NCBI GenBank assembly: GCA_023251435.1
Contig: JAHEYU010000039.1
Coordinates: 1 to 54,757 of the forward strand
Source: Bacteroidota bacterium
Lineage (GTDB): Bacteria > Bacteroidota > Bacteroidia > Bacteroidales > Prolixibacteraceae
Direction of reading: 5' to 3'
Length of the DNA stretch: 54,757 nucleotides
Position 1 is the first letter of the stretch, and every line of letters starts with the position of its first letter. The translations under genes were made by a program, and so were the position numbers. Positions 18,454 through 26,958 of this stretch are shown here, piece after piece. The notes under the pieces were generated by a model. That model searched no databases. It saw only the letters and a list, made by a program, of their open reading frames with translations, and was not told where the DNA came from.

Positions 18454-18888
18454 TTAGCTTGTTAAAATCTTCTCCATCGAGTTTCGCTCCTTGTCTGTGA
18501 GCGAATCCATTTCGTTGAGTGCATGTTGAATTTTGGTTTTGAAGTTCCAACACGTCATTTGCCGTAATGAAAGCCGACGGCCAAATTCGTAAGTCGAAAT
18601 GTCTGCTTTCCCTTTGCAAACATTGTAGGCAATGTAAAATGCTTTGCTGATCGGAAATTTCACACCATGAAATATGGTTCCGTTCGTTGCTGTTTCTTTT
18701 GATTTACATTTTGTGCATCGTCTCGAAAATGGTTCTTTTCCTGCGCATGAGTTCTTATTCCCGCATTTCTTACAAACGAAACCACCTGCCCATTTCATAT
18801 TCGACAAAAACTCCAGACACTTTTCGTCACTTTGGAACATTTCGTCAAGCTGCTCCAGACTAAGACTATCATTAAATATTTCACTCAT
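18454..18888 (-). CDS. Orphan IS1595-type zinc-ribbon protein
   Basis: About 144 residues from the second Met (MSEIFNDSLS). It corresponds to the N-terminal domain of IS1595-family transposases: FQSDEKCLEFLSNMKWAGGFVC, then C-x2-C (CKKC) and a second C-x2-C (CTKC), then NGTIFHGVKFPISKAFYIAYNV and a helix-turn-helix (DISTYEFGRRLSLRQMTCWNFKTKI). The DDE catalytic domain is missing, no remnant of it follows, and the protein ends cleanly. It may be a decayed transposase or a domesticated DNA-binding protein. Spaced direct repeats lie just upstream. Confidence 0.8.
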   Translation of the reverse strand: MSEIFNDSLSLEQLDEMFQSDEKCLEFLSNMKWAGGFVCKKCGNKNSCAGKEPFSRRCTKCKSKETATNGTIFHGVKFPISKAFYIAYNVCKGKADISTYEFGRRLSLRQMTCWNFKTKIQHALNEMDSLTDKERNSMEKILTS

Positions 18889-18925
18889 AATCAATAGTTT
18901 CTGACTGCGAAGATAAATAATTAAT

Positions 18926-19011: not shown

Positions 19012-19257
19012 ATGGAAAATAATTGTAGCGCAAGCCCAAAGCCTAAAACGGCAAAAGAATTTTTTAGATCCCGGAATTTCTGGAAACCTTTTACAGCAAT
19101 AGTGATTGGCGGAGTTGCCGGTTTTTTATATTATCATTTTGTTGGTTGCACTTCAGGAACCTGCGCAATTACCAGCAATCCATACATGAGCATAATCATG
19201 GGTGGATTCATGGGTTATTTTGTGGTGAATAGCCCTTGTGCCTCAGGTAAATGTTAA
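19012..19257 (+). CDS. DUF6132-like small membrane protein
   Basis: Eighty-one residues with two membrane segments (about 27-46 and 58-74) separated by GCTSGTCAITSNPYMS. The GCTSGTCAI(T)SNP stretch with paired cysteines is typical of a small Bacteroidota family (DUF6132) often found with thioredoxin, rhodanese and other sulfur genes. Function unknown; here it is divergent from the IS1595-like gene and lies in the same region as the sulfur-transfer operon. Confidence 0.7.
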   Translation: MENNCSASPKPKTAKEFFRSRNFWKPFTAIVIGGVAGFLYYHFVGCTSGTCAITSNPYMSIIMGGFMGYFVVNSPCASGKC

Positions 19258-19454: not shown

Positions 19455-20129
19455 TTAACCAAGCAGGTTCCTCTTTTTTAAGTATCGAAGCGTTAAATAG
19501 CTTGCGAGCAATATTCCGCCAATGATAAAAAAGTAAACGATGCTGATGTGCTTTTGATAGATTAACAGAAGAAGCAATCCGCCCAGATAGAGATAGAAAG
19601 AATTGTACTCTTTTCGTACTACCTTTTTCAAATTGAATTTCTGACCTTCGAACGCCTTGTTGATTTTTGTAAAATCAGGAATAATGGCATTTACATTCTT
19701 CAGGTAAAGTTTGTATTCTTCGCCGAATTTATTTTCCAGAAATGCTTGCTCGGCTGAAATAATAGCAACGTACAAAAGCACAAATACCGGAATTGTAAGG
19801 AATACAAAAAGTGATGAATTTGCAAATATGCCAACTCCCAAAAGAATTAATATATTCCCAAAATACATGGGATTTCGGCAAATGCTATATATTCCGGAAG
19901 TGACAAGATGCTCGGCATAAATTTGCCTGTATAAACCACCGCGAACAATGTATTCCAAACCAATGGTAATACCACGCGACATCACTCCCAATAAAAATAT
20001 GGTCAGTCCCAAACCAATTTGAAGGCCCAAATTATCGGTTAAAGCAGGCGAAGGGATGAACATAGTTACATACAAAGTTGCGAAAAACCAGTTACGGTTG
20101 TGAAAAACCCAGTTTCCAAATTTGACCAT
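19455..20129 (-). CDS. Isoprenylcysteine carboxyl methyltransferase-like membrane methyltransferase
   Basis: A 224-residue membrane protein with about five hydrophobic segments. The stretch VTSGIYSICRNPMYFGNILILLGVGI followed by EEYKLYLKNVNAIIPDF is the SAM-binding signature of the ICMT/phospholipid methyltransferase group (RNPxYxG ... FG.EY..Y...V...P). Bacterial members methylate lipids or small lipophilic molecules, and the substrate cannot be told here. It overlaps nothing but follows cmoA by only eight bases, so the two form an operon. Confidence 0.75.
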   Translation of the reverse strand: MVKFGNWVFHNRNWFFATLYVTMFIPSPALTDNLGLQIGLGLTIFLLGVMSRGITIGLEYIVRGGLYRQIYAEHLVTSGIYSICRNPMYFGNILILLGVGIFANSSLFVFLTIPVFVLLYVAIISAEQAFLENKFGEEYKLYLKNVNAIIPDFTKINKAFEGQKFNLKKVVRKEYNSFYLYLGGLLLLLIYQKHISIVYFFIIGGILLASYLTLRYLKKRNLLG

Positions 20130-20137
20130 AATCCAGA

Positions 20138-20863
20138 CTATTTAATTGCGATTATACCCGCAAAATTGTACCATTTAAAAAAAACTTCAGTTTTATTGAA
20201 CCCAGCTTCGGCCAGCATTTCCATATTCTCGCTTAATTTATAAGGGATTAAAACATTCTCGAGGGCTTCCCTTTTTTGCGATATTTCCATTTCATCGTAA
20301 TTATTCCGGCGCTTCAAATCATAATAGAATCTGATGAACTGACGGTTAAATTCGGTGCTTTCACCCAGTACTTTTTCAATTAGTATCAGACAGCCGCCTG
20401 GGTTCAATTGCTTGTAAACCGACTGCAATAATTTTAGTCTGTTTAAAGGGCGCACAAATTGCAGCGTAAGGCAAAGCACTACGACTGATGCATTTTGGAT
20501 TTCAACCTGTTTGTTCAAATCGGCAGTGACCAAACTTAAAGAACGCGTTACCCCGTTTGCCTCCAGATTATGCCTGCAGGTTTTTAGCATTTCTGCAGAA
20601 TCGTCCACACCAACAAACTGGATGGAAGGATCAAGCAATGTATTGAGGGACAAGAAAGTTGTGCCGGTCGAACATCCTAAATCGTACAGTGCCGTTTCGG
20701 GCTGGGCGTAATCGCGGGCTATCTCGGTAATCATCCGCTGAAATTCAAGATAAAATGGCACCGAACGCACCACCATGTCGTCGAAAACATCCGCAACTTT
20801 CGCATCGAATTTAAAATCAGACGATTTTTCTATTGGTGATTTAAATACTTTATCCGTTTTCAT
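20138..20863 (-). CDS. cmoA: Carboxy-S-adenosyl-L-methionine synthase CmoA
   Basis: A 241-residue protein matching CmoA along its length: SDFKFDAKVADVFDDMVVRSVPFYLEF at the N-terminus, LYDLGCSTGTTFLSLN as motif I, FVGVDDSAEML, and LTLQFVRPLNRL. CmoA makes carboxy-SAM from SAM and prephenate, used by CmoB to form cmo5U34 in tRNA. No cmoB is in the window. It could also be a CmoA homologue that supplies another reaction. Upstream is the FNR-like regulator on the same strand. Confidence 0.88.
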   Translation of the reverse strand: MKTDKVFKSPIEKSSDFKFDAKVADVFDDMVVRSVPFYLEFQRMITEIARDYAQPETALYDLGCSTGTTFLSLNTLLDPSIQFVGVDDSAEMLKTCRHNLEANGVTRSLSLVTADLNKQVEIQNASVVVLCLTLQFVRPLNRLKLLQSVYKQLNPGGCLILIEKVLGESTEFNRQFIRFYYDLKRRNNYDEMEISQKREALENVLIPYKLSENMEMLAEAGFNKTEVFFKWYNFAGIIAIK

Positions 20864-20939: not shown

Positions 20940-21635
20940 CTACCCTCTTTTACTTATCTCCGATAAATTTCCATGATTTAATATGGAAATGTCCTTTTCA
21001 TTCAGTTCTATTAAGCCATCCTTTTCAAAGCTTTTCAGGAGTTTTACAGCACTCTCTGTTGAAATTCCGGCGAAGTCAGCAATGTCTTTGCGCGAAAGAA
21101 GCTGAAAGATTTCAGGATATTCTGCCTTTAAACCATCGATGTACAGTAGAGTATCTGCCATGCGCCCGTTCATCTGTTTATACATTACCGTTCGCAGCGT
21201 ATCAAAAAGATTCGAGTTTTGCTCGCAGTACCGGCGGATAATTCCCAATCCGAATGTTCCGTTTTGCCTGATTATTTGTACGATCGCCTCTTTTTCAACC
21301 AGAAAAACCTGGCAATCTGTTAATGCAACCGACGAATAGTTGAAAGTGTTTCTCGCGAATACTGAAGATAATCCGACGAACTCACCCGGTTTGATGATTC
21401 GCAGATTAAAGCTTTTCGCGTGGTCGCCCTCTATGTATTGCCTGGCCAAACCTTTCATTACAAAAAGCACATACGAAGCGAAAGTACCCTGCTTGGTCAG
21501 GTTGTCGCCTTTTCTGAACAGAACTTGTGTTTTGCTTGCCCTCACCAGCTCAACCTCATCAGTTGTAAGCGTCTGAAAACATGGAGCCTGAACATCGCAA
21601 ATAAAATCACTGTCAGTTTCAAGAATGGGTTTCAT
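20940..21635 (-). CDS. Crp/FNR-like transcriptional regulator with partial cysteine set
   Basis: A 231-residue regulator: effector barrel (about 25-130), long dimerisation helix (about 130-165) and helix-turn-helix (LSRKDIADFAGISTESAVKLLKSFEKDGLI). Near the N-terminus Cys13-x5-Cys19, and in the barrel Cys108, match the positions of three of the four cluster ligands of E. coli FNR (Cys23, Cys29, Cys122); the first of the FNR cysteines is absent. It may hold a cluster with an alternative ligand or act as a thiol switch. It is divergent from the sulfur-transfer operon and is its most likely regulator. Confidence 0.85.
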   Translation of the reverse strand: MKPILETDSDFICDVQAPCFQTLTTDEVELVRASKTQVLFRKGDNLTKQGTFASYVLFVMKGLARQYIEGDHAKSFNLRIIKPGEFVGLSSVFARNTFNYSSVALTDCQVFLVEKEAIVQIIRQNGTFGLGIIRRYCEQNSNLFDTLRTVMYKQMNGRMADTLLYIDGLKAEYPEIFQLLSRKDIADFAGISTESAVKLLKSFEKDGLIELNEKDISILNHGNLSEISKRG

Positions 21636-21636
21636 A

Positions 21637-21846
21637 ATTTGTGATGAAATTTATTTCGCCTGTAAAGTTAGGATTATACTTCGACTGGGCATAGCCTGAA
21701 CTATTAATTGCAATACTTGCTTCGATTACATCAATAAAAAAGTTGTCGCAGTTCAATTCAGGAGCCGATGTGCTTCAACCCAAAAATCCTTACTCCTCCT
21801 GATTTGTGATGTAGTTTTGTATCGTAACAATTAAAACAAATCAGAA
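21637..21846. promoter_or_regulatory. Divergent control region of the sulfur-transfer operon
   Basis: The 210 bases between the FNR-like regulator and the first thioredoxin-like gene carry the 10-mer ATTTGTGATG twice (21637-21646 and 21802-21811), each close to one of the two genes; TGTGA is a Crp-type half-site. TAGTTTTG (21812-21819) fits the -7 consensus for the operon and directly follows the second copy. Confidence 0.5.
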
Positions 21847-22203
21847 ATGTTATACACCAATTTAAAACACATCGAAAGCGCTGCGGAATATGCACAAATA
21901 ATCAGCGAAAACGAAAATGTAATTGTCATCTGTGGACGCATGGGGCCAATGTGTGTTCCGGTTTACCGGATTGCCGAAGAATTGGAAAATGAATATGCAC
22001 ATGTAAAATTCTTCGACATGGAATTTGACAATCCTGAATCGCAGGTCATTCGCTCTTTGCCAGAAGTTCGCGGCTTCATTGGAATTCCGTTTACCATTTA
22101 TTACAAAAACGGGCAAGTAATGAAAGCTACTTCAAGCATTCAATCGAAAGCGCAGATAACATCCATATTGGATCAGGAATTTGCAGCGACGGTAAACGTT
22201 TAA
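21847..22203 (+). CDS. Thioredoxin-like protein with CxxxxxxC site
   Basis: A 118-residue thioredoxin-fold protein (VIVICGRMGPMCVPVYRIAEEL, GFIGIPFTIYYKNGQVM). In place of CxxC it has Cys29 and Cys36 separated by six residues, the first at the end of the beta strand and the second in the following helix. The cis-Pro (GIPFT) is kept. Such spacing suggests a binding or persulfide-handling role rather than ordinary disulfide reduction. First gene of the operon of thiol and sulfur proteins, 32 bases before the next. Confidence 0.75.
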   Translation: MLYTNLKHIESAAEYAQIISENENVIVICGRMGPMCVPVYRIAEELENEYAHVKFFDMEFDNPESQVIRSLPEVRGFIGIPFTIYYKNGQVMKATSSIQSKAQITSILDQEFAATVNV

Positions 22204-22235
22204 TTCAACCAATCAAACATATAAATTAAAAGAAT

Positions 22236-22655
22236 ATGCAAACAACATTTATTATAATCGTAATTTTAATGGCCGCTTTCATTGGTTTCCGCTATTTCGC
22301 AATGGCAAAAATGAAAAATACTCCTATGGTGGCCGACCACGAAAAAGTATTGACGCTAACAGACCAGAATTTTCAGCAACAAATAAAAAATAAAGTTGTA
22401 TTGGTCGATTTTTGGGCCAGTTGGTGCGCTCCCTGCCGAATGATGGCTCCCGTTTTAAACGATGTCTCCGCTGAATTATCAGGGAACTCGCATGTCGGAA
22501 AAGTCGACATTCAGCAATACGAATCACTTGCCCAAAAATTCAAGGTCAGGAGTATTCCAACCCTGATCCTTTTTAAAAACGGGACCGAAATCAACCGGTT
22601 TGTGGGAATTAAATCGAAAGAATTTTTGCTGAAAGAAATTGCAAAAGCAAGCTGA
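22236..22655 (+). CDS. Membrane-anchored thioredoxin
   Basis: A 139-residue protein with an N-terminal membrane anchor (about 4-22) and a full thioredoxin domain (38-139): VVLVDFWASWCAPCRMMAP with Cys64 and Cys67, and SIPTLILFKNG with the cis-Pro. The active-site domain could face either side; the positive residues after the anchor (KMK) favour the cytoplasm. It should reduce disulfides or persulfides formed by its operon partners. A 187-base gap follows before the flavoprotein, where another promoter may lie. Confidence 0.9.
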   Translation: MQTTFIIIVILMAAFIGFRYFAMAKMKNTPMVADHEKVLTLTDQNFQQQIKNKVVLVDFWASWCAPCRMMAPVLNDVSAELSGNSHVGKVDIQQYESLAQKFKVRSIPTLILFKNGTEINRFVGIKSKEFLLKEIAKAS

Positions 22656-22842
22656 AAGTTCGACTTGATGGTAAATTTCAAATGACATAACTGATAAGCT
22701 GGCAGCATCCAGCACCAGAGGTGCAAAATATTTGTAAAAAACAATCATAAACAAAGAAACTCGTCCGCGAGAAAAAACAGAACAAAACATTGACCTGCTT
22801 TCGGACGAAACATAAACAGTACTAAACAAATAAGATAAGAAT

Positions 22843-25116
22843 ATGGAAAAGATATTAATTATAGGGGGAGTTGCGGCCGGAGCAACTGCGGCGGCAAAAG
22901 TTCGCCGCATTTCTCCGACTGCTCAAATTAGAATGCTTGAAGCCGGACCGGACATTTCATTTGCCAATTGCGGCCTGCCATATTACATTGGCGGCGACAT
23001 CAAAAGCCGCTCGAAACTGATTCTGCAAAGTCCCGAAAGTTTCAACGAGCAATATGGCGTTGAAGTACATACGCATACCATCGTTTCGTCGATCGACAGA
23101 GCTGCGCACAAGGTAAAAACATTGGACACACGCAGCGGCGACTATAAAACGTTCGAATACACCAAACTAATTCTGGCACAGGGCGGCCGGCCTATAAAAC
23201 CAACGCTTCCCGGTGCGGATTACGATCATGTTTTCACGCTGTGGACTTTGGAAGACATGGACAAAATTTCACTCCATCTGGATGAAAATAAACCCAAAAA
23301 CGCAGTCGTTGTGGGTGGCGGATTTATTGGCCTCGAAATGGTGGAAGCCCTTGTAAAACGTGGCCTGAAAGTGAACGTGGTGGAGATGATGCCGCATGTG
23401 ATGGCCATTATGGAGGCCGAAACGGCAGGATTTGTTGAGAATGAAATGCTTTCATACGGCGTTGGTATTCATACCGGTGCCGGAGTAACCGAAATCATGC
23501 CCCGGAAAGTAAAACTCGACAATGGAAAAGTACTGGATGCCGACATGGTTTTACTGTCGATTGGCGTTCGCCCAACATTGCAACTCGCAATAGATGCAGG
23601 TCTCGAAATCGGGGAAGCAGGCGGACTACTGGTCAATGAGCAACTGCAAACTTCTGATCCCGATATTTTTGCGGCTGGCGATATGGTCGAAATCGAACAT
23701 CGCGTAAACGGTAAAAAAGTACGCATTCCGCTGGCCGGACCTGCAAACCGTCAGGGACGAATTGCTGCCGAGAATGTATTGGGTGGAAATCATGCCTACA
23801 AAGGTTCAATCGGAACTTCGGTGGTGCGCGTTTTCGAAGCAGTGACCGGAATAACCGGCTTCTCCCTAAAACAGGCTCGCGCTGCCGGATTGGATGCCGA
23901 TTCAGTTGTTGTTCACAAAGAGCATCATACTTCCTATTATCCGGGAGCTGAAACGGTAACCACCATGCTGGTATACGACCGAAACACCGGGATTATTCTG
24001 GGTGGACAAACGGCAGGTTACAAAGGAGCTGACAAACGTTTGGATGTGATTGCAACTGCAACAGCTTCAAAATTAACCATCGGTGATATCGCTGATATTG
24101 ACTTCGCCTATTCACCACCCATCGGAACGGCCAACGATGTCCTTAACATGGCTGCTTATACTGCCGAAAACCGGATTTCAGGGTTCAGCCCATCAGTTAC
24201 CGTTACCGAATTGGATGCTTTCATTGAAGGAAAAAATCCTGTATTTGTTGATGTTCGTGATGTGTTCGCTTTCGAAAAAAGCCATGTAAAAGGAGCTATC
24301 CATTTGCCATTGGAAATGCTGGCAGAACAAATTAAAACCATCCCGGCAAACCGAATCGTGATAGTTTACGACGAAACCGGAAAAAAAGGACATCAGGCAC
24401 TTCGCACATTGCTGGGCTCGGGTTATAACGATGTTACCAATATTTCAGGAGGACACACTTCGCTTCAGAGACAAGCCAGAACCGCTGGATTTAAGCACAT
24501 TCAAATAGATCTTTTACCGGTTGAGCCAAAATCGCTGGAAGAAGAAACTTCGAAAACGGAAGAAAAAACAGTCGCAAAAGCACAGGATAAAAATTCACCG
24601 ATTGTTGTGGATGTTCGTACTCCTGAAGAATTTGAAGACGGTGCATATCCTGACGCCATCAATATTCCGTTGGATGAATTACAAGAGAGAATTGATGAGC
24701 TGGGAAGCAAAACGAGGGAGATAACGCTCTATTGCGCTTCGGGAGCCCGTTCTGCTTATGCACAGCGGTTCCTCCTGCAAATGGGTTTTGCCAATGCAAC
24801 CAATGGCGGTGGAATTGCCGCGATGATGTCGCGCAAAAATACAAAACCCTCTTCAGCAGCTCCTTCAAACGAACCATTAGTGATCGATGTACGTACTAAA
24901 GAAGAATTTCAAGGCGGCGCTTATCCAGGCGCCATCAATATTCCGTTGGATGAATTGCAAATGCGAATCATTGAATTGGGAAGCAAAACAAGGGAAATTA
25001 CACTCTATTGTGCCTCGGGAGCGCGCTCTGCTTACGGACAAAGAGGCTTGCAGCAAATGGGTTTCACCAACGTAAAAAATGGTGGCGGCATTATGCAAAT
25101 GATGAGACAGAGATAA
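22843..25116 (+). CDS. CoA-disulfide reductase-like flavoprotein with three rhodanese domains
   Basis: A 757-residue fusion. Residues 1-445 are a pyridine nucleotide-disulfide oxidoreductase of the CoA-disulfide/persulfide reductase type: FAD loop GGVAAGATAA, redox Cys43 in SFANCGLPYYIGG, NADH loop VVGGGFIGLEM, FAD-binding IFAAGDMVE. Three rhodanese domains follow: about 449-550, where the catalytic Cys is replaced by Asp510 (VYDETG), then about 582-665 and 675-757, both active-type (YCASGARS; Cys631 and Cys723). The last two are close copies with 26 identical consecutive bases. Known CoADR-Rhd enzymes have one rhodanese domain and reduce persulfides. Here two sulfur-carrying domains could feed one flavin site. 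Confidence 0.92.
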   Translation: MEKILIIGGVAAGATAAAKVRRISPTAQIRMLEAGPDISFANCGLPYYIGGDIKSRSKLILQSPESFNEQYGVEVHTHTIVSSIDRAAHKVKTLDTRSGDYKTFEYTKLILAQGGRPIKPTLPGADYDHVFTLWTLEDMDKISLHLDENKPKNAVVVGGGFIGLEMVEALVKRGLKVNVVEMMPHVMAIMEAETAGFVENEMLSYGVGIHTGAGVTEIMPRKVKLDNGKVLDADMVLLSIGVRPTLQLAIDAGLEIGEAGGLLVNEQLQTSDPDIFAAGDMVEIEHRVNGKKVRIPLAGPANRQGRIAAENVLGGNHAYKGSIGTSVVRVFEAVTGITGFSLKQARAAGLDADSVVVHKEHHTSYYPGAETVTTMLVYDRNTGIILGGQTAGYKGADKRLDVIATATASKLTIGDIADIDFAYSPPIGTANDVLNMAAYTAENRISGFSPSVTVTELDAFIEGKNPVFVDVRDVFAFEKSHVKGAIHLPLEMLAEQIKTIPANRIVIVYDETGKKGHQALRTLLGSGYNDVTNISGGHTSLQRQARTAGFKHIQIDLLPVEPKSLEEETSKTEEKTVAKAQDKNSPIVVDVRTPEEFEDGAYPDAINIPLDELQERIDELGSKTREITLYCASGARSAYAQRFLLQMGFANATNGGGIAAMMSRKNTKPSSAAPSNEPLVIDVRTKEEFQGGAYPGAINIPLDELQMRIIELGSKTREITLYCASGARSAYGQRGLQQMGFTNVKNGGGIMQMMRQR

Positions 25117-25140
25117 TCTTAATCAAATAAATCTAAACCT

Positions 25141-25464
25141 ATGCAAAACGTATTTTCTTACATCGACTTTCAGAAAAAAATAGAAGGACACGATCGAGCT
25201 GCCCTGCTGATTCATAATCCTGAAAATGAATCTTCCCGATGTGCTTTCCGAAGTATCGCCGAAGCCATGCATTTGAGTCAGACCATATCGGTTTTTGTGG
25301 CTGATGTGAGTCAGGTTCAGGATATTCATCCGGTTTACAAGATTACAAGTGAACCTTCGCTCTTACTTTTCGCGAATGGGAAAGTGGTAAATATATTGGA
25401 AGGCTGCCATGAAAGTGACTACTTCAAAGCTATGATGAATCACGATCTGTCCAAAGAAAGATGA
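25141..25464 (+). CDS. Monothiol thioredoxin-like protein
   Basis: A 107-residue thioredoxin fold: AALLIHNPENESSRCAFRSIAEAM, VADVSQVQDIHPVYKITSEPSLLLFANGKVV. The usual CxxC is reduced to one cysteine, Cys34, and the cis-Pro is present (SEPSLL). It cannot form the standard internal disulfide, but could hold a persulfide or a mixed disulfide with a partner. It lies 24 bases after the rhodanese fusion gene and before a free rhodanese, in keeping with sulfur relay. Confidence 0.7.
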   Translation: MQNVFSYIDFQKKIEGHDRAALLIHNPENESSRCAFRSIAEAMHLSQTISVFVADVSQVQDIHPVYKITSEPSLLLFANGKVVNILEGCHESDYFKAMMNHDLSKER

Positions 25465-25554
25465 TAAGAAAATGCCCTAATGTAAGTTTTAAATACAAAG
25501 TCTAATATTGAAAGTATTGCCATATAAACGAAAACAATAATTAAATAAACAACT

Positions 25555-25866
25555 ATGTTTGAATCAATTAAGAAACTTTTAGGAATTAAAACAATCGACT
25601 ATGCCCAATTAATGAAAGAAGGGGCTGTAATTTTAGATGTTCGAACCAAAGGGGAATATGGATCCGGACACATTAGGGGATCAGTCAATATTCCGGTTGA
25701 TCAACTAAGCAAAAATCTTCAGAAATTTAAAGACAAAAAGCGCACGATAATTACTTGCTGTGAATCAGGAATGAGAAGTTCATCTGCAAAGGGAATATTG
25801 AAGTCAAACGGTTTTATCAATGTTCACAACGGTGGAAGATGGGCGAGTCTAAATAATAAATTGTGA
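25555..25866 (+). CDS. Single-domain rhodanese
   Basis: A 103-residue rhodanese domain: VILDVRTKGEYGSGHIRGSVNIP at the N-terminus and the active loop TCCESGMRSS, where the second Cys of the pair is the catalytic persulfide carrier. No signal peptide or membrane segment. It likely carries sulfane sulfur between donors and the operon's reductase or thioredoxins. It shares its design with the two active domains of the fusion protein but is clearly more distant from them. Confidence 0.93.
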   Translation: MFESIKKLLGIKTIDYAQLMKEGAVILDVRTKGEYGSGHIRGSVNIPVDQLSKNLQKFKDKKRTIITCCESGMRSSSAKGILKSNGFINVHNGGRWASLNNKL

Positions 25867-25895
25867 TATTGTGATAATTATTTGCAAATGAAATC

Positions 25896-25953
25896 AACCA
25901 CATTTACACATAGCAAAACATAAAAACTATGTGCCCTATGTGCCTATGTGGTT
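25896..25953. repeat. Folded-tandem palindrome, copy 1
   Basis: Left arm AACCACATTTACACATAG (25896-25913) faces right arm CTATGTGCCTATGTGGTT (25936-25953), 15 of 18 positions pairing. The right arm is identical to that of copy 2 at 27950-27967. Within arms, an eight-base period (CTATGTGC / CTATGTGG) is visible. It lies immediately upstream of the thioredoxin gene in the sulfur operon and overlaps a possible alternative start (25931), so the start at 25967 is preferred. Confidence 0.85.
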
Positions 25954-25966
25954 TAAAAATAAACAG

Positions 25967-26266
25967 ATGAAGGCAAACTTTGATACAATAATAAGTGATA
26001 CAAAACCCGTAATTGTTGACTTTCATGCCTTGTGGTGCGGGCCGTGCAAGGTGCAGTCGCCCATTCTGAAAGAGTTGGCAGCCGAACTTGGAGATCGGGT
26101 TCGGGTGATCAAAATTGATGTCGATCAAAATCAGCAATTGGCTGGACGTTACCAGATTCAGAGTGTTCCGACGCTAATGATTTTTAAAAGCGGAGAAATA
26201 AAATACAAACAACCGGGAGTTCACACCAAGCAACAGTTAATGAGTATATTGACAAATATTTTTTAA
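25967..26266 (+). CDS. Thioredoxin
   Basis: A 99-residue classical cytoplasmic thioredoxin: VIVDFHALWCGPCKVQSP with Cys24 and Cys27, and SVPTLMIFKSG with the cis-Pro. The ATG at 25967 is chosen because the region upstream belongs to a palindromic repeat. It probably regenerates the rhodanese-type partners or reduces released persulfide. Sixth gene of the operon, 17 bases before DUF2892. Confidence 0.95.
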   Translation: MKANFDTIISDTKPVIVDFHALWCGPCKVQSPILKELAAELGDRVRVIKIDVDQNQQLAGRYQIQSVPTLMIFKSGEIKYKQPGVHTKQQLMSILTNIF

Positions 26267-26283
26267 TTCACTAAAAAATCAAA

Positions 26284-26490
26284 ATGAAAAAAAACATGGG
26301 AACTATTGACAAGGCGATCAGGATACTGGTTGCTGTCGTGATTGCTATTCTATTCTTTACAAACGTTGTAACAGGCACATTGGGCATTGTTCTGTTAGTT
26401 TTGGCTGTGGTCTTTGTGATTACAAGCTTTATCAGCTTCTGCCCATTGTATTGGCCTTTCGGCATAAATACAGGTGCGAAAAACAAATAA
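26284..26490 (+). CDS. DUF2892 membrane protein
   Basis: Sixty-eight residues: MKKNMGTIDKAIRILVAVVIAIL, then a second hydrophobic segment and FISFCPLYWPFGINT. This is the DUF2892 (YgaP C-terminal-like) two-helix membrane domain; in YgaP it anchors a rhodanese domain in the membrane. Its occurrence in a rhodanese operon suggests the same partnership as separate proteins. The Cys in FCPLYWPFG is conserved in the family. Confidence 0.9.
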   Translation: MKKNMGTIDKAIRILVAVVIAILFFTNVVTGTLGIVLLVLAVVFVITSFISFCPLYWPFGINTGAKNK

Positions 26491-26509
26491 AAATTAAAAA
26501 GTTTAAACC

Positions 26510-26899
26510 ATGGAATATTATTTCGATGCAATTTTGCATACAGATTTTGAAGATGCGGTGGCTAAAATTACAGAAGCCTTGAAAACAGAAGGCTTTGGCG
26601 TATTGACAGAAATTGACATGCAGGCCAAATTAAAAGAGAAACTTGGCGTGGACTACAAAAAATACAAGATTCTGGGTGCCTGTAATCCGGCCTTTGCCTA
26701 CAAAGCTTTGCAGGCAGAAGAATTGATCGGGTTGATGCTGCCCTGCAATGTTGTTGTAACCGACAAAGAGGATGGGACAACACAGGTTGCAGTTATTCAT
26801 CCCATCGCGTCGATGATGGCCATACAAAACCCTGCATTGGAGCCGCTCGCGCAAGAAGTAACAGAAAAACTTAAGAAGGTAATGAATCTGCTGAAATAA
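26510..26899 (+). CDS. DUF302 domain protein
   Basis: A 129-residue DUF302 protein (TDFEDAVAKITEALKTEGFGVLTEIDMQAKLKEKLG, KILGACNPAFAYKALQAEELIGLMLPCNVVV). The conserved Cys in GACNP and the Cys in LPCN are both present. Function is not established; these proteins frequently sit with rhodaneses, DUF2892 and sulfur or heavy-metal genes, as here. Last gene of the operon, 19 bases after DUF2892 and followed by a strong hairpin. Confidence 0.92.
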   Translation: MEYYFDAILHTDFEDAVAKITEALKTEGFGVLTEIDMQAKLKEKLGVDYKKYKILGACNPAFAYKALQAEELIGLMLPCNVVVTDKEDGTTQVAVIHPIASMMAIQNPALEPLAQEVTEKLKKVMNLLK

Positions 26900-26905
26900 G
26901 TTTCA

Positions 26906-26958
26906 GATTAAGTTTATCCCTGACAGGTTTTCGAACCCTGTCAGGGATAAACTTAATC
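26906..26958. terminator. Bidirectional terminator closing the sulfur operon
   Basis: A 22-bp perfect stem (26906-26927 with 26937-26958) and a nine-base loop, GATTAAGTTTATCCCTGACAG on the left. It overlaps the stop codon of the converging sugar-isomerase-like gene, so it would end both transcripts. Confidence 0.85.

Follow-up and report, generated by a model that had tools for sequence, protein, structure and literature searches.

How do Bacteroidota, often met in sulfidic sediments, digesters and guts, manage reactive sulfur? Good descriptions of its control exist for Firmicutes and Proteobacteria, but few for this phylum. The question is raised by a locus in a 54,757-nucleotide stretch of contig JAHEYU010000039.1 from a member of the Prolixibacteraceae (host genome size 5.73 Mb), hereafter the window. 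Here, at 20940-26899, eight genes of one orientation, spaced 17-187 bp apart, and a Crp/Fnr-type regulator divergent from them form a unit with a 22-bp hairpin at its end. A preliminary description had proposed a persulfide-handling operon; all nine genes are present where it placed them, and the family names it gave are borne out by Pfam and NCBIfam scans, Pfam matching the free rhodanese (RHD), two thioredoxins, DUF2892, DUF302 and a flavoprotein resembling coenzyme A (CoA)-disulfide reductase (CoADR). For this analysis we coined the names REG for the regulator, CDR3R for the flavoprotein, TRXm for the thioredoxin with an N-terminal anchor, and TLP1 and TLP2 for two thioredoxin-like proteins; TRX is the cytoplasmic thioredoxin. 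We lean, without strong conviction, towards reading the unit as a redox-regulated reductive relay from NAD(P)H to persulfide, with sulfane sulfur on thiols as its putative substrate.

CDR3R provides the link to persulfides. It is homologous to the solved structures 3nta/3ntd, 3icr and the CoA-persulfide reductase (CoAPR) 8a56, with E values down to 1e-131; we take 3nta/3ntd to be S. loihica NpsR, 3icr to be the B. anthracis protein and 6pfz that of A. fulgidus. With NpsR it shares a CoADR domain with an active-site Cys and an adjoining rhodanese domain, and Cys43 (SFANCGLPY) is kept in 22/22 CDR3R orthologues. The available excerpts of the NpsR study state that AfNpsr reduces persulfides and polysulfide, and describe a mechanism in which a rhodanese Cys, C519 in AfNpsr, takes the sulfur and CoA ferries it to the flavin-side Cys (PMC7969121). 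Excerpts of a second study give C508 as the sulfur-accepting rhodanese Cys of CoAPR and report that the E. faecalis enzyme reduces CoA persulfide (PMC9405070).

CDR3R has the three rhodanese domains attributed to it (R1, residues ~465-542; R2, 585-665; R3, 677-757), and PspE models also match it in three stretches. The first domain lacks the active-site Cys and reads YDETGKKG at residues 509-516. The sulfur-accepting Cys of NpsR is presumably C531. Asp replaces Cys in all 20 operon orthologues that have the segment, two more of the 22 being truncated. An order-level comparison of 30 loci out of 55 matches separates a clade whose members, the window included, are 73-100% identical and have Asp at this position (10/10) from paralogues at 39-43% identity that have Cys (20/20, motifs CxxG[LIM]R), and [VI]YDExGKKG was found in 26/29 further loci, a script finding none in L170, L178 and L180. 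R2 and R3, by contrast with R1, keep YCASGARS; they are identical at 61/80 residues and 175/240 bases, and are joined by linkers of ~42 residues from R1 to R2 and ~11 before R3. Among relatives the longest frame holds 0 to 3 exact YCASGxRS motifs, and tail length varies: the protein of G004 (L037/L070) is shorter (665 aa), that of L047 longer (870 aa), L217 has three YCASG motifs, and in L220 the tail was lost through a frame break. Cys-bearing tail rhodaneses recur across families. CDR3R thus differs from NpsR by the change of the R1 Cys to Asp and by the addition of, mostly, one to three Cys-bearing rhodaneses, a comparison of sequences from which we infer that the sulfur-accepting role may have moved from R1 to the mobile tail domains R2/R3. 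With a rhodanese Cys replaced and tail domains added, this clade offers a natural test case for the "swinging CoA arm" model. At a separate locus, L222, a CoA-binding-domain protein (PF13380, 10256-10633) starts 7 bp after CDR3R, and REG was not found there.

The neighbourhood of TLP1 was surveyed in loci located by TLP1 similarity: the best 80 of 562 matches and 33 further loci were fetched (113 in all), and removal of 9 exact duplicates left 105 TLP1 loci including the window, near-duplicates being retained. Absences of genes partly reflect contig ends, because many contigs are short. Neighbour labels were given by eye and one representative of each was then checked by Pfam, which bears out sulfur transport, DUF302, OsmC, rhodanese-thioredoxin and glutaredoxin, each for its one representative; the "SQR-like" representative matched only Pyr_redox_2, the "ArsM" one only a methyltransferase, and "NifX" fell just under the cutoff. 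Genes of sulfur type (rhodanese, SQR-like, sulfur transport, DUF302, DUF2892) stand downstream of TLP1 in 19/21 CDR3R loci and 27/68 loci with thioredoxin reductase (TrxR), and upstream in 1 and 4, respectively, the two sides covered being unequal (5 and 8.5 kb). Gene content of this kind makes persulfide handling the likelier role of the CDR3R form, while the TrxR form may serve general thiol reduction. DUF302 has itself been linked earlier with sox gene clusters, according to the part of that report available (PMC5037610).

These two forms reflect an exchangeable flavoprotein slot, occupied among the 105 loci by TrxR only in 68, CDR3R only in 21, both in 1 and neither in 15; the window locus has no TrxR in the slot. 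The TrxR proteins carry CxxCDG in 66/71. A REG tree of 83 rows (55 TrxR, 20 CDR3R, 8 unlabelled), built with a fast method, long branches being flagged, requires a minimum of 6 label changes, of which 3 are forced by starred branches, so one regulator has been repeatedly paired with either reductase; the label is also clustered, since shuffled labels need about 18 changes. The TrxR form occurs even in the window's own genus (G010, locus L086; G019, locus L069), and its named carriers include Alkaliflexus imshenetskii DSM 15055 and Geofilum rubicundum (L132, L138). This natural swap of TrxR against a relative of persulfide reductases makes it possible to ask directly if removing persulfides and reducing disulfides serve a single physiological purpose.

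The slot also feeds the alternative that survives best, a general disulfide-stress operon in which thioredoxin and TLP1, run by REG, would repair protein and CoA disulfides, the flavoprotein would keep CoA or the thioredoxins reduced, and the rhodaneses would be passengers. It draws on TrxR being the commonest flavoprotein of the slot, and on the 41/68 TrxR-type loci that have no downstream sulfur-type gene in the stretch covered. In addition, the excerpts available of a B. fragilis study report that loss of a CoADR-rhodanese-TusA-DsrE protein makes the cells more diamide-sensitive (PMC6158253). Passenger rhodaneses, however, sit poorly with the sulfur-type genes of nearly all CDR3R-type loci and with the recurrence of Cys-bearing tails across families, and AfNpsr had no detectable CoA-disulfide activity, the bacterial enzymes being stated to behave likewise in the portions of that paper available (PMC7969121). 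We consider this explanation rather unlikely for the window operon, though clearly the closest competitor to the persulfide relay. As for the persulfide role first proposed, it is upheld by the homology of CDR3R to NpsR and CoA-persulfide reductase and by the sulfur-type neighbours.

Several observations weigh against the persulfide relay. Because sulfur-type genes lie downstream at only 27/68 TrxR-type loci, sulfur handling may be an accessory function of a general thiol system, and with TrxR in the slot of most relatives seen, the unit's central task may be general thiol reduction. To our knowledge, known CoADRs are not thioredoxin reductases, and the swap is therefore no proof that both enzymes do the same job. 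CDR3R does not reach the cutoff of the CoA-disulfide reductase equivalog model TIGR03385 (419 vs 578.8 bits). A pattern with the fixed spacing of the control region described below gave 10 matches in the host genome vs 6 for a reversed control, so that no claim can be made for a regulon beyond the known promoter. The set itself is rare: the complete eight genes with REG occur in 2/113 fetched loci (L031, L047), seven of the eight in 7 (two being the same place) and six in 9. Finally, at nine loci of the order that come from other families, CDR3R has REG nearby in 3/9 and TLP1 in 1/9 and stands without either at the remaining ones, suggesting that CDR3R can work without the operon.

What recurs is a smaller core. 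The REG cluster is found at 89/105 TLP1 loci and the thioredoxin cluster at 77/105, and REG is divergent from TLP1, within 2 kb, at 86/105 loci (Bacteroidales). TLP1 is present in 34/61 near genomes, in 100/140 family genomes (two of the matches, at E 5e-5 and 5e-4, probably represent different thioredoxins) and in 27/296 genomes sampled phylum-wide, 16 of them, including the window, at E below 1e-40; the nearest named match among the best 80 of 562, L064 from a Prolixibacteraceae bin, is 90% identical. A search of the 140 family genomes with CDR3R residues 450-757 returned 38 near-full matches, 27 of them within 5 kb of TLP1 as counted by eye. Twenty CDR3R loci were then picked, not drawn, comprising 15 of the 38 near-full matches (most unlinked ones included) and 5 shorter ones; REG adjoins CDR3R in 13/20, and five of these 13 (L164, L165, L166, L168, L183) have REG-TRXm-CDR3R without TLP1 in the stretch. 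The unit thus survives the check that the preliminary description had set for itself, co-occurrence elsewhere: REG, TLP1 and the membrane thioredoxin recur widely together, and close relatives have variants of the eight-gene set, although the complete set was found in only the two of 113 loci above. An obligatory set of eight genes is ruled out, as CDR3R also occurs alone or with REG only. Separately, G017 carries the REG-TLP1-TRXm-CDR3R unit twice, on separate contigs (L043, L046), and L219 and L131 apparently belong to one genome.

The shared control region between REG and TLP1 that had been proposed was borne out in 69 REG/TLP1 regions with a gap under 500 bp, expected counts being obtained by first-order resampling. 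TAnnTTTG, which we take to be the consensus of the Bacteroidota-type -7 element, is present in 68/69 vs 7.2 expected, and a TTG-N8-CAA dyad occurs anywhere in 56/69 vs 7.3 expected. With TAnnTTTG as the alignment anchor, two dyads take constant positions 22 bp apart, centred 84.5 and 62.5 bp upstream of it. The downstream dyad is exactly placed in 48/68 loci, the upstream dyad has its CAA half at the fixed place in 52/68, and both are in place in 33/68 if a loose left half is allowed for the upstream dyad. Two helical turns between the dyads and their distance to the promoter make this layout a plausible fit to class I activation by two dimers. The exact box TTGAT-N4-ATCAA, presumably the FNR consensus, occurs in 2/69 (L132 Alkaliflexus, L136) vs 0.16 expected and is not in the window. 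The REG strand has a TAnnTTTG of its own, CAAAnnTA on the plus strand, at the upstream dyad in 21/68 loci (52/68 having enough upstream sequence), the window not among them, and CAAAnnTA occurs anywhere in 34/69 regions vs 13.2 expected; as a side reading, REG may repress itself in some relatives through an upstream dyad that overlaps its own -7 element. A Sigma-70 promoter scan stayed near the shuffled level (19 vs 19.7).

REG had been described as FNR-like, which holds for its fold with a helix-turn-helix domain and, more loosely, for its operator dyads. The predicted structure is of Crp/Fnr type (pLDDT 86.7; TMq 0.83 to 2gau and 0.73 to FNR 5e44). In an hhalign alignment to E. coli FNR, C13 falls on C23 and C19 on C29, so that two N-terminal Cys are in register; FNR C20 has no partner, and C122 falls on F111, REG C108 lying three residues before that position. 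We take the cluster ligands of FNR to be C20, C23, C29 and C122. With aligned partners for C23 and C29 only, membership of REG in the class of FNR proteins with a 4Fe-4S cluster was rejected, and the C122 column holds Cys in 12/92 proteins of the REG cluster. Of these 92 proteins, which include paralogues, 83 retain C13, 81 C19, 67 C108 and 66 C137; the CX5C pair (C13-C19) is thus the most constant part of the Cys set, and its persistence is consistent with REG acting as a dithiol or persulfide switch.

Of the small partners, TLP1 answers to the thioredoxin-fold protein with CxxxxxxC noted before: C29 and C36 of its CGRMGPMC motif are each kept in 97/98 homologues, and the fold is predicted with pLDDT 92.9, the closest solved folds being mainly thioredoxins (TMq up to 0.78, 50 listed). 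C29 is close to where a strand ends, and C36 immediately precedes the helix. A phmmer alignment to an E. coli/human thioredoxin chimera, judged by eye, puts C29 on F and C36 on P of WCGPC, so the TLP1 cysteines are not equivalents of the active-site pair. P81, at what we take to be the cis-Pro place of the fold, is invariant in 44 members, over which mean column identity is 80%. The window member of this highly conserved family has no Pfam match at E 0.01, and its NCBIfam thioredoxin match is below the cutoff. TLP2, by contrast, fails as the monothiol partner it was thought to be, C34 and C89 both being kept in 27/27, with only C34 at the thioredoxin-motif place (by eye). Long TLP2 forms (187-205 aa) make up 14/27, 12 of them at TrxR-type loci, and the one long representative scanned has a C-terminal glutaredoxin domain (PF00462), whereas the short forms are all at CDR3R-type loci (13/13). 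The active-site Cys of TRXm are each kept in 69/70, and by the positive-inside rule the protein probably faces the cytoplasm. In RHD, C69 is kept in 17/17 and the adjacent C68 in 15/17.

Taken together, we envision the relay as follows. REG would sense thiol oxidation or persulfidation by its C13-C19 pair, with or without a cluster, and activate the operon from the tandem dyads in class I geometry. CDR3R would pass electrons from NAD(P)H via FAD to Cys43 and CoA, as in NpsR, with R2 and R3 delivering persulfide sulfur to the CoA arm and R1, which has lost its sulfur-accepting Cys, acting as a dock. Free RHD, TLP1 and TLP2 might donate sulfane sulfur to small thiols and protein thiols or accept it from them; leftover persulfides and disulfides would be reduced by the two thioredoxins (TRXm, TRX), sulfide would leave, and DUF2892 and DUF302 would be accessory. 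The flow first suggested, from rhodanese to flavoprotein with discharge by thioredoxins, overlooked the changed R1, the TrxR in the slot of most relatives, the two Cys of TLP2 and the frequent absence of these neighbours around the flavoprotein in other families. More tentatively, and with doubt outweighing confidence, the parts could be joined into a response of Bacteroidota to reactive sulfur. Thiol persulfidation would be read by a two-Cys switch derived from FNR, rather than by an Fe-S FNR, and this switch would drive either of the exchangeable flavoproteins, TrxR or CDR3R; TLP1, with its displaced cysteines, would then be a new class of persulfide-carrying thioredoxin-fold protein, and CDR3R a persulfide reductase whose sulfur-accepting site moved to mobile tail rhodaneses of variable copy number.

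A different destination for the sulfur is conceivable. In a sulfur-supply operon, the rhodaneses and thioredoxin-like proteins would channel persulfide sulfur to biosynthesis (Fe-S clusters, thiolation of tRNA or cofactors) or to anaerobic sulfur respiration and not to detoxification. Proteins with 4Fe-4S in the membrane and SQR-like flavoproteins recur at related loci (the latter label by eye, Pfam Pyr_redox_2), and sulfur respiration has been proposed for NpsR in the excerpts of PMC7969121; yet no biosynthetic acceptor gene was seen by eye among the 45 commonest neighbour clusters, and the window operon has no respiratory complex, which makes this improbable. A metal(loid) response, for example to arsenic with thioredoxins as electron donors, is very improbable, its support being a methyltransferase labelled ArsM-like by eye (by Pfam a methyltransferase only) near 4/105 loci and absent from the window operon.

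The nearest known systems to the proposed persulfide relay are the NpsR/CoAPR enzymes, the cst-like operon of E. faecalis and the bmoR/BF638R_0572 and trxP genes of B. fragilis; the window unit may work like these, differing in regulator type, the changed R1, the tail rhodaneses and TLP1. The E. faecalis operon (CstR, RhdA/RhdB, CoAPR) likewise has a CoA-persulfide reductase, free rhodaneses and a thiol-sensing regulator, as far as the available text describes it (PMC9405070). The window operon also holds a rhodanese and a CoA-persulfide-reductase-like enzyme together, but its regulator is of Crp/Fnr type instead of CstR, and it adds thioredoxins, TLP1/TLP2, DUF2892 and DUF302. CstR, we assume, belongs to the CsoR family. 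In B. fragilis, also of the Bacteroidales, a CoADR-rhodanese flavoprotein is tied to thioredoxin and thiol balance; there, by the excerpts available, BmoR is of MarR type and the flavoprotein has TusA and DsrE domains in place of the PspE-type repeats of CDR3R (PMC6158253). From its length we guess that BF638R_0572 may belong with the 39-43% CDR3R paralogues. Operons of thioredoxin reductase with thioredoxin resemble the TrxR-type loci, in which TrxR stands beside TLP1 and CDR3R is absent; the window has no TrxR there. From E. coli FNR, REG is set apart by the missing C20 counterpart and by Phe at the C122 position. A published account of this gene set was not found in titles or abstracts, most subscription papers lying outside that coverage.

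Table 1. Features of the unit and its surroundings in the window.
Feature	Position	Strand	Basis
REG, Crp/Fnr-type regulator, 231 aa	20940..21635	-	Pfam cNMP_binding + HTH_Crp_2; predicted structure; hhalign to E. coli FNR
Upstream dyad TTCGATTACATCAA, left half weaker in the window	21721..21734		constant position, 84.5 bp upstream of TAnnTTTG
Downstream FNR-like dyad TTG-N8-CAA TTGTCGCAGTTCAA	21743..21756		fixed place, 22 bp from upstream dyad
TAnnTTTG, Bacteroidota-type -7 promoter element (presumed) TAGTTTTG	21812..21819	+	68/69 intergenic regions
TLP1, thioredoxin fold without WCxxC, motif CGRMGPMC (C29, C36), 118 aa	21847..22203	+	conservation and predicted structure
TRXm, thioredoxin (WCAPC), N-terminal hydrophobic anchor (by eye)	22236..22655	+	PF00085, E 3.9e-31
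CDR3R, CoA-disulfide/persulfide-reductase-like flavoprotein (Cys43) with rhodaneses R1, R2, R3	22843..25116	+	Pfam, NCBIfam, structure homology
TLP2, thioredoxin-like, C34 and C89	25141..25464	+	sub-cutoff thioredoxin matches; both Cys 27/27
RHD, single-domain rhodanese, CCESGMR	25555..25866	+	PF00581, E 7.5e-17
TRX, cytoplasmic thioredoxin (WCGPC)	25970..26266 (listed ORF from GTG 25931)	+	PF00085, E 3.5e-27, 98-aa form
DUF2892/YgaP-like transmembrane protein	26284..26490	+	PF11127, E 4.6e-21
DUF302 protein	26510..26899	+	PF03625, E 3e-25
22-bp perfect inverted repeat, hairpin between convergent genes at operon end	26906..26958		-36.5 kcal/mol, z -9.3
DUF6132-like small membrane protein, possible outlying set member	19012..19257	+	PF19628, just below cutoff

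Two boundaries in Table 1 call for comment. By eye, the ATG is the more likely start of TRX than the GTG of the open reading frame (ORF) list, because the codons upstream of it are a repeated CTATGTG stretch; the shorter protein still spans the thioredoxin model. The strong terminator claimed for the operon end has its perfect stem in the hairpin, whose core sequence occurs once in the whole genome, which rules out a repeated element. By eye no T run follows it on either strand, and a simple terminator scan of the window did not list it (11 found vs 9.6 in shuffled sequence). We regard it as a likely terminator, though with no T run and a position between convergent genes it is not of the textbook type.

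Beyond the unit, on the REG side, the DUF6132-like protein has several Cys; its cluster lies near TLP1 in 12/105 loci, 7 on the REG side and 5 downstream of TLP1, and DUF6132 directly adjoins REG in L064 and L077. Two methyltransferase-like genes (by eye, 19455-20863) separate it from REG in the window. A small protein at 18454-18894 has an IS1595-type transposase zinc ribbon (PF12760) and no transposase domain match; its 144-aa cluster is found near REG in 6/105 loci, at least 3 of them beside DUF6132. Genes for OsmC (PF02566, representative) and the NifX-like protein occur around TLP1 mostly at TrxR-type loci (L056-L060, L079, L083 and others).

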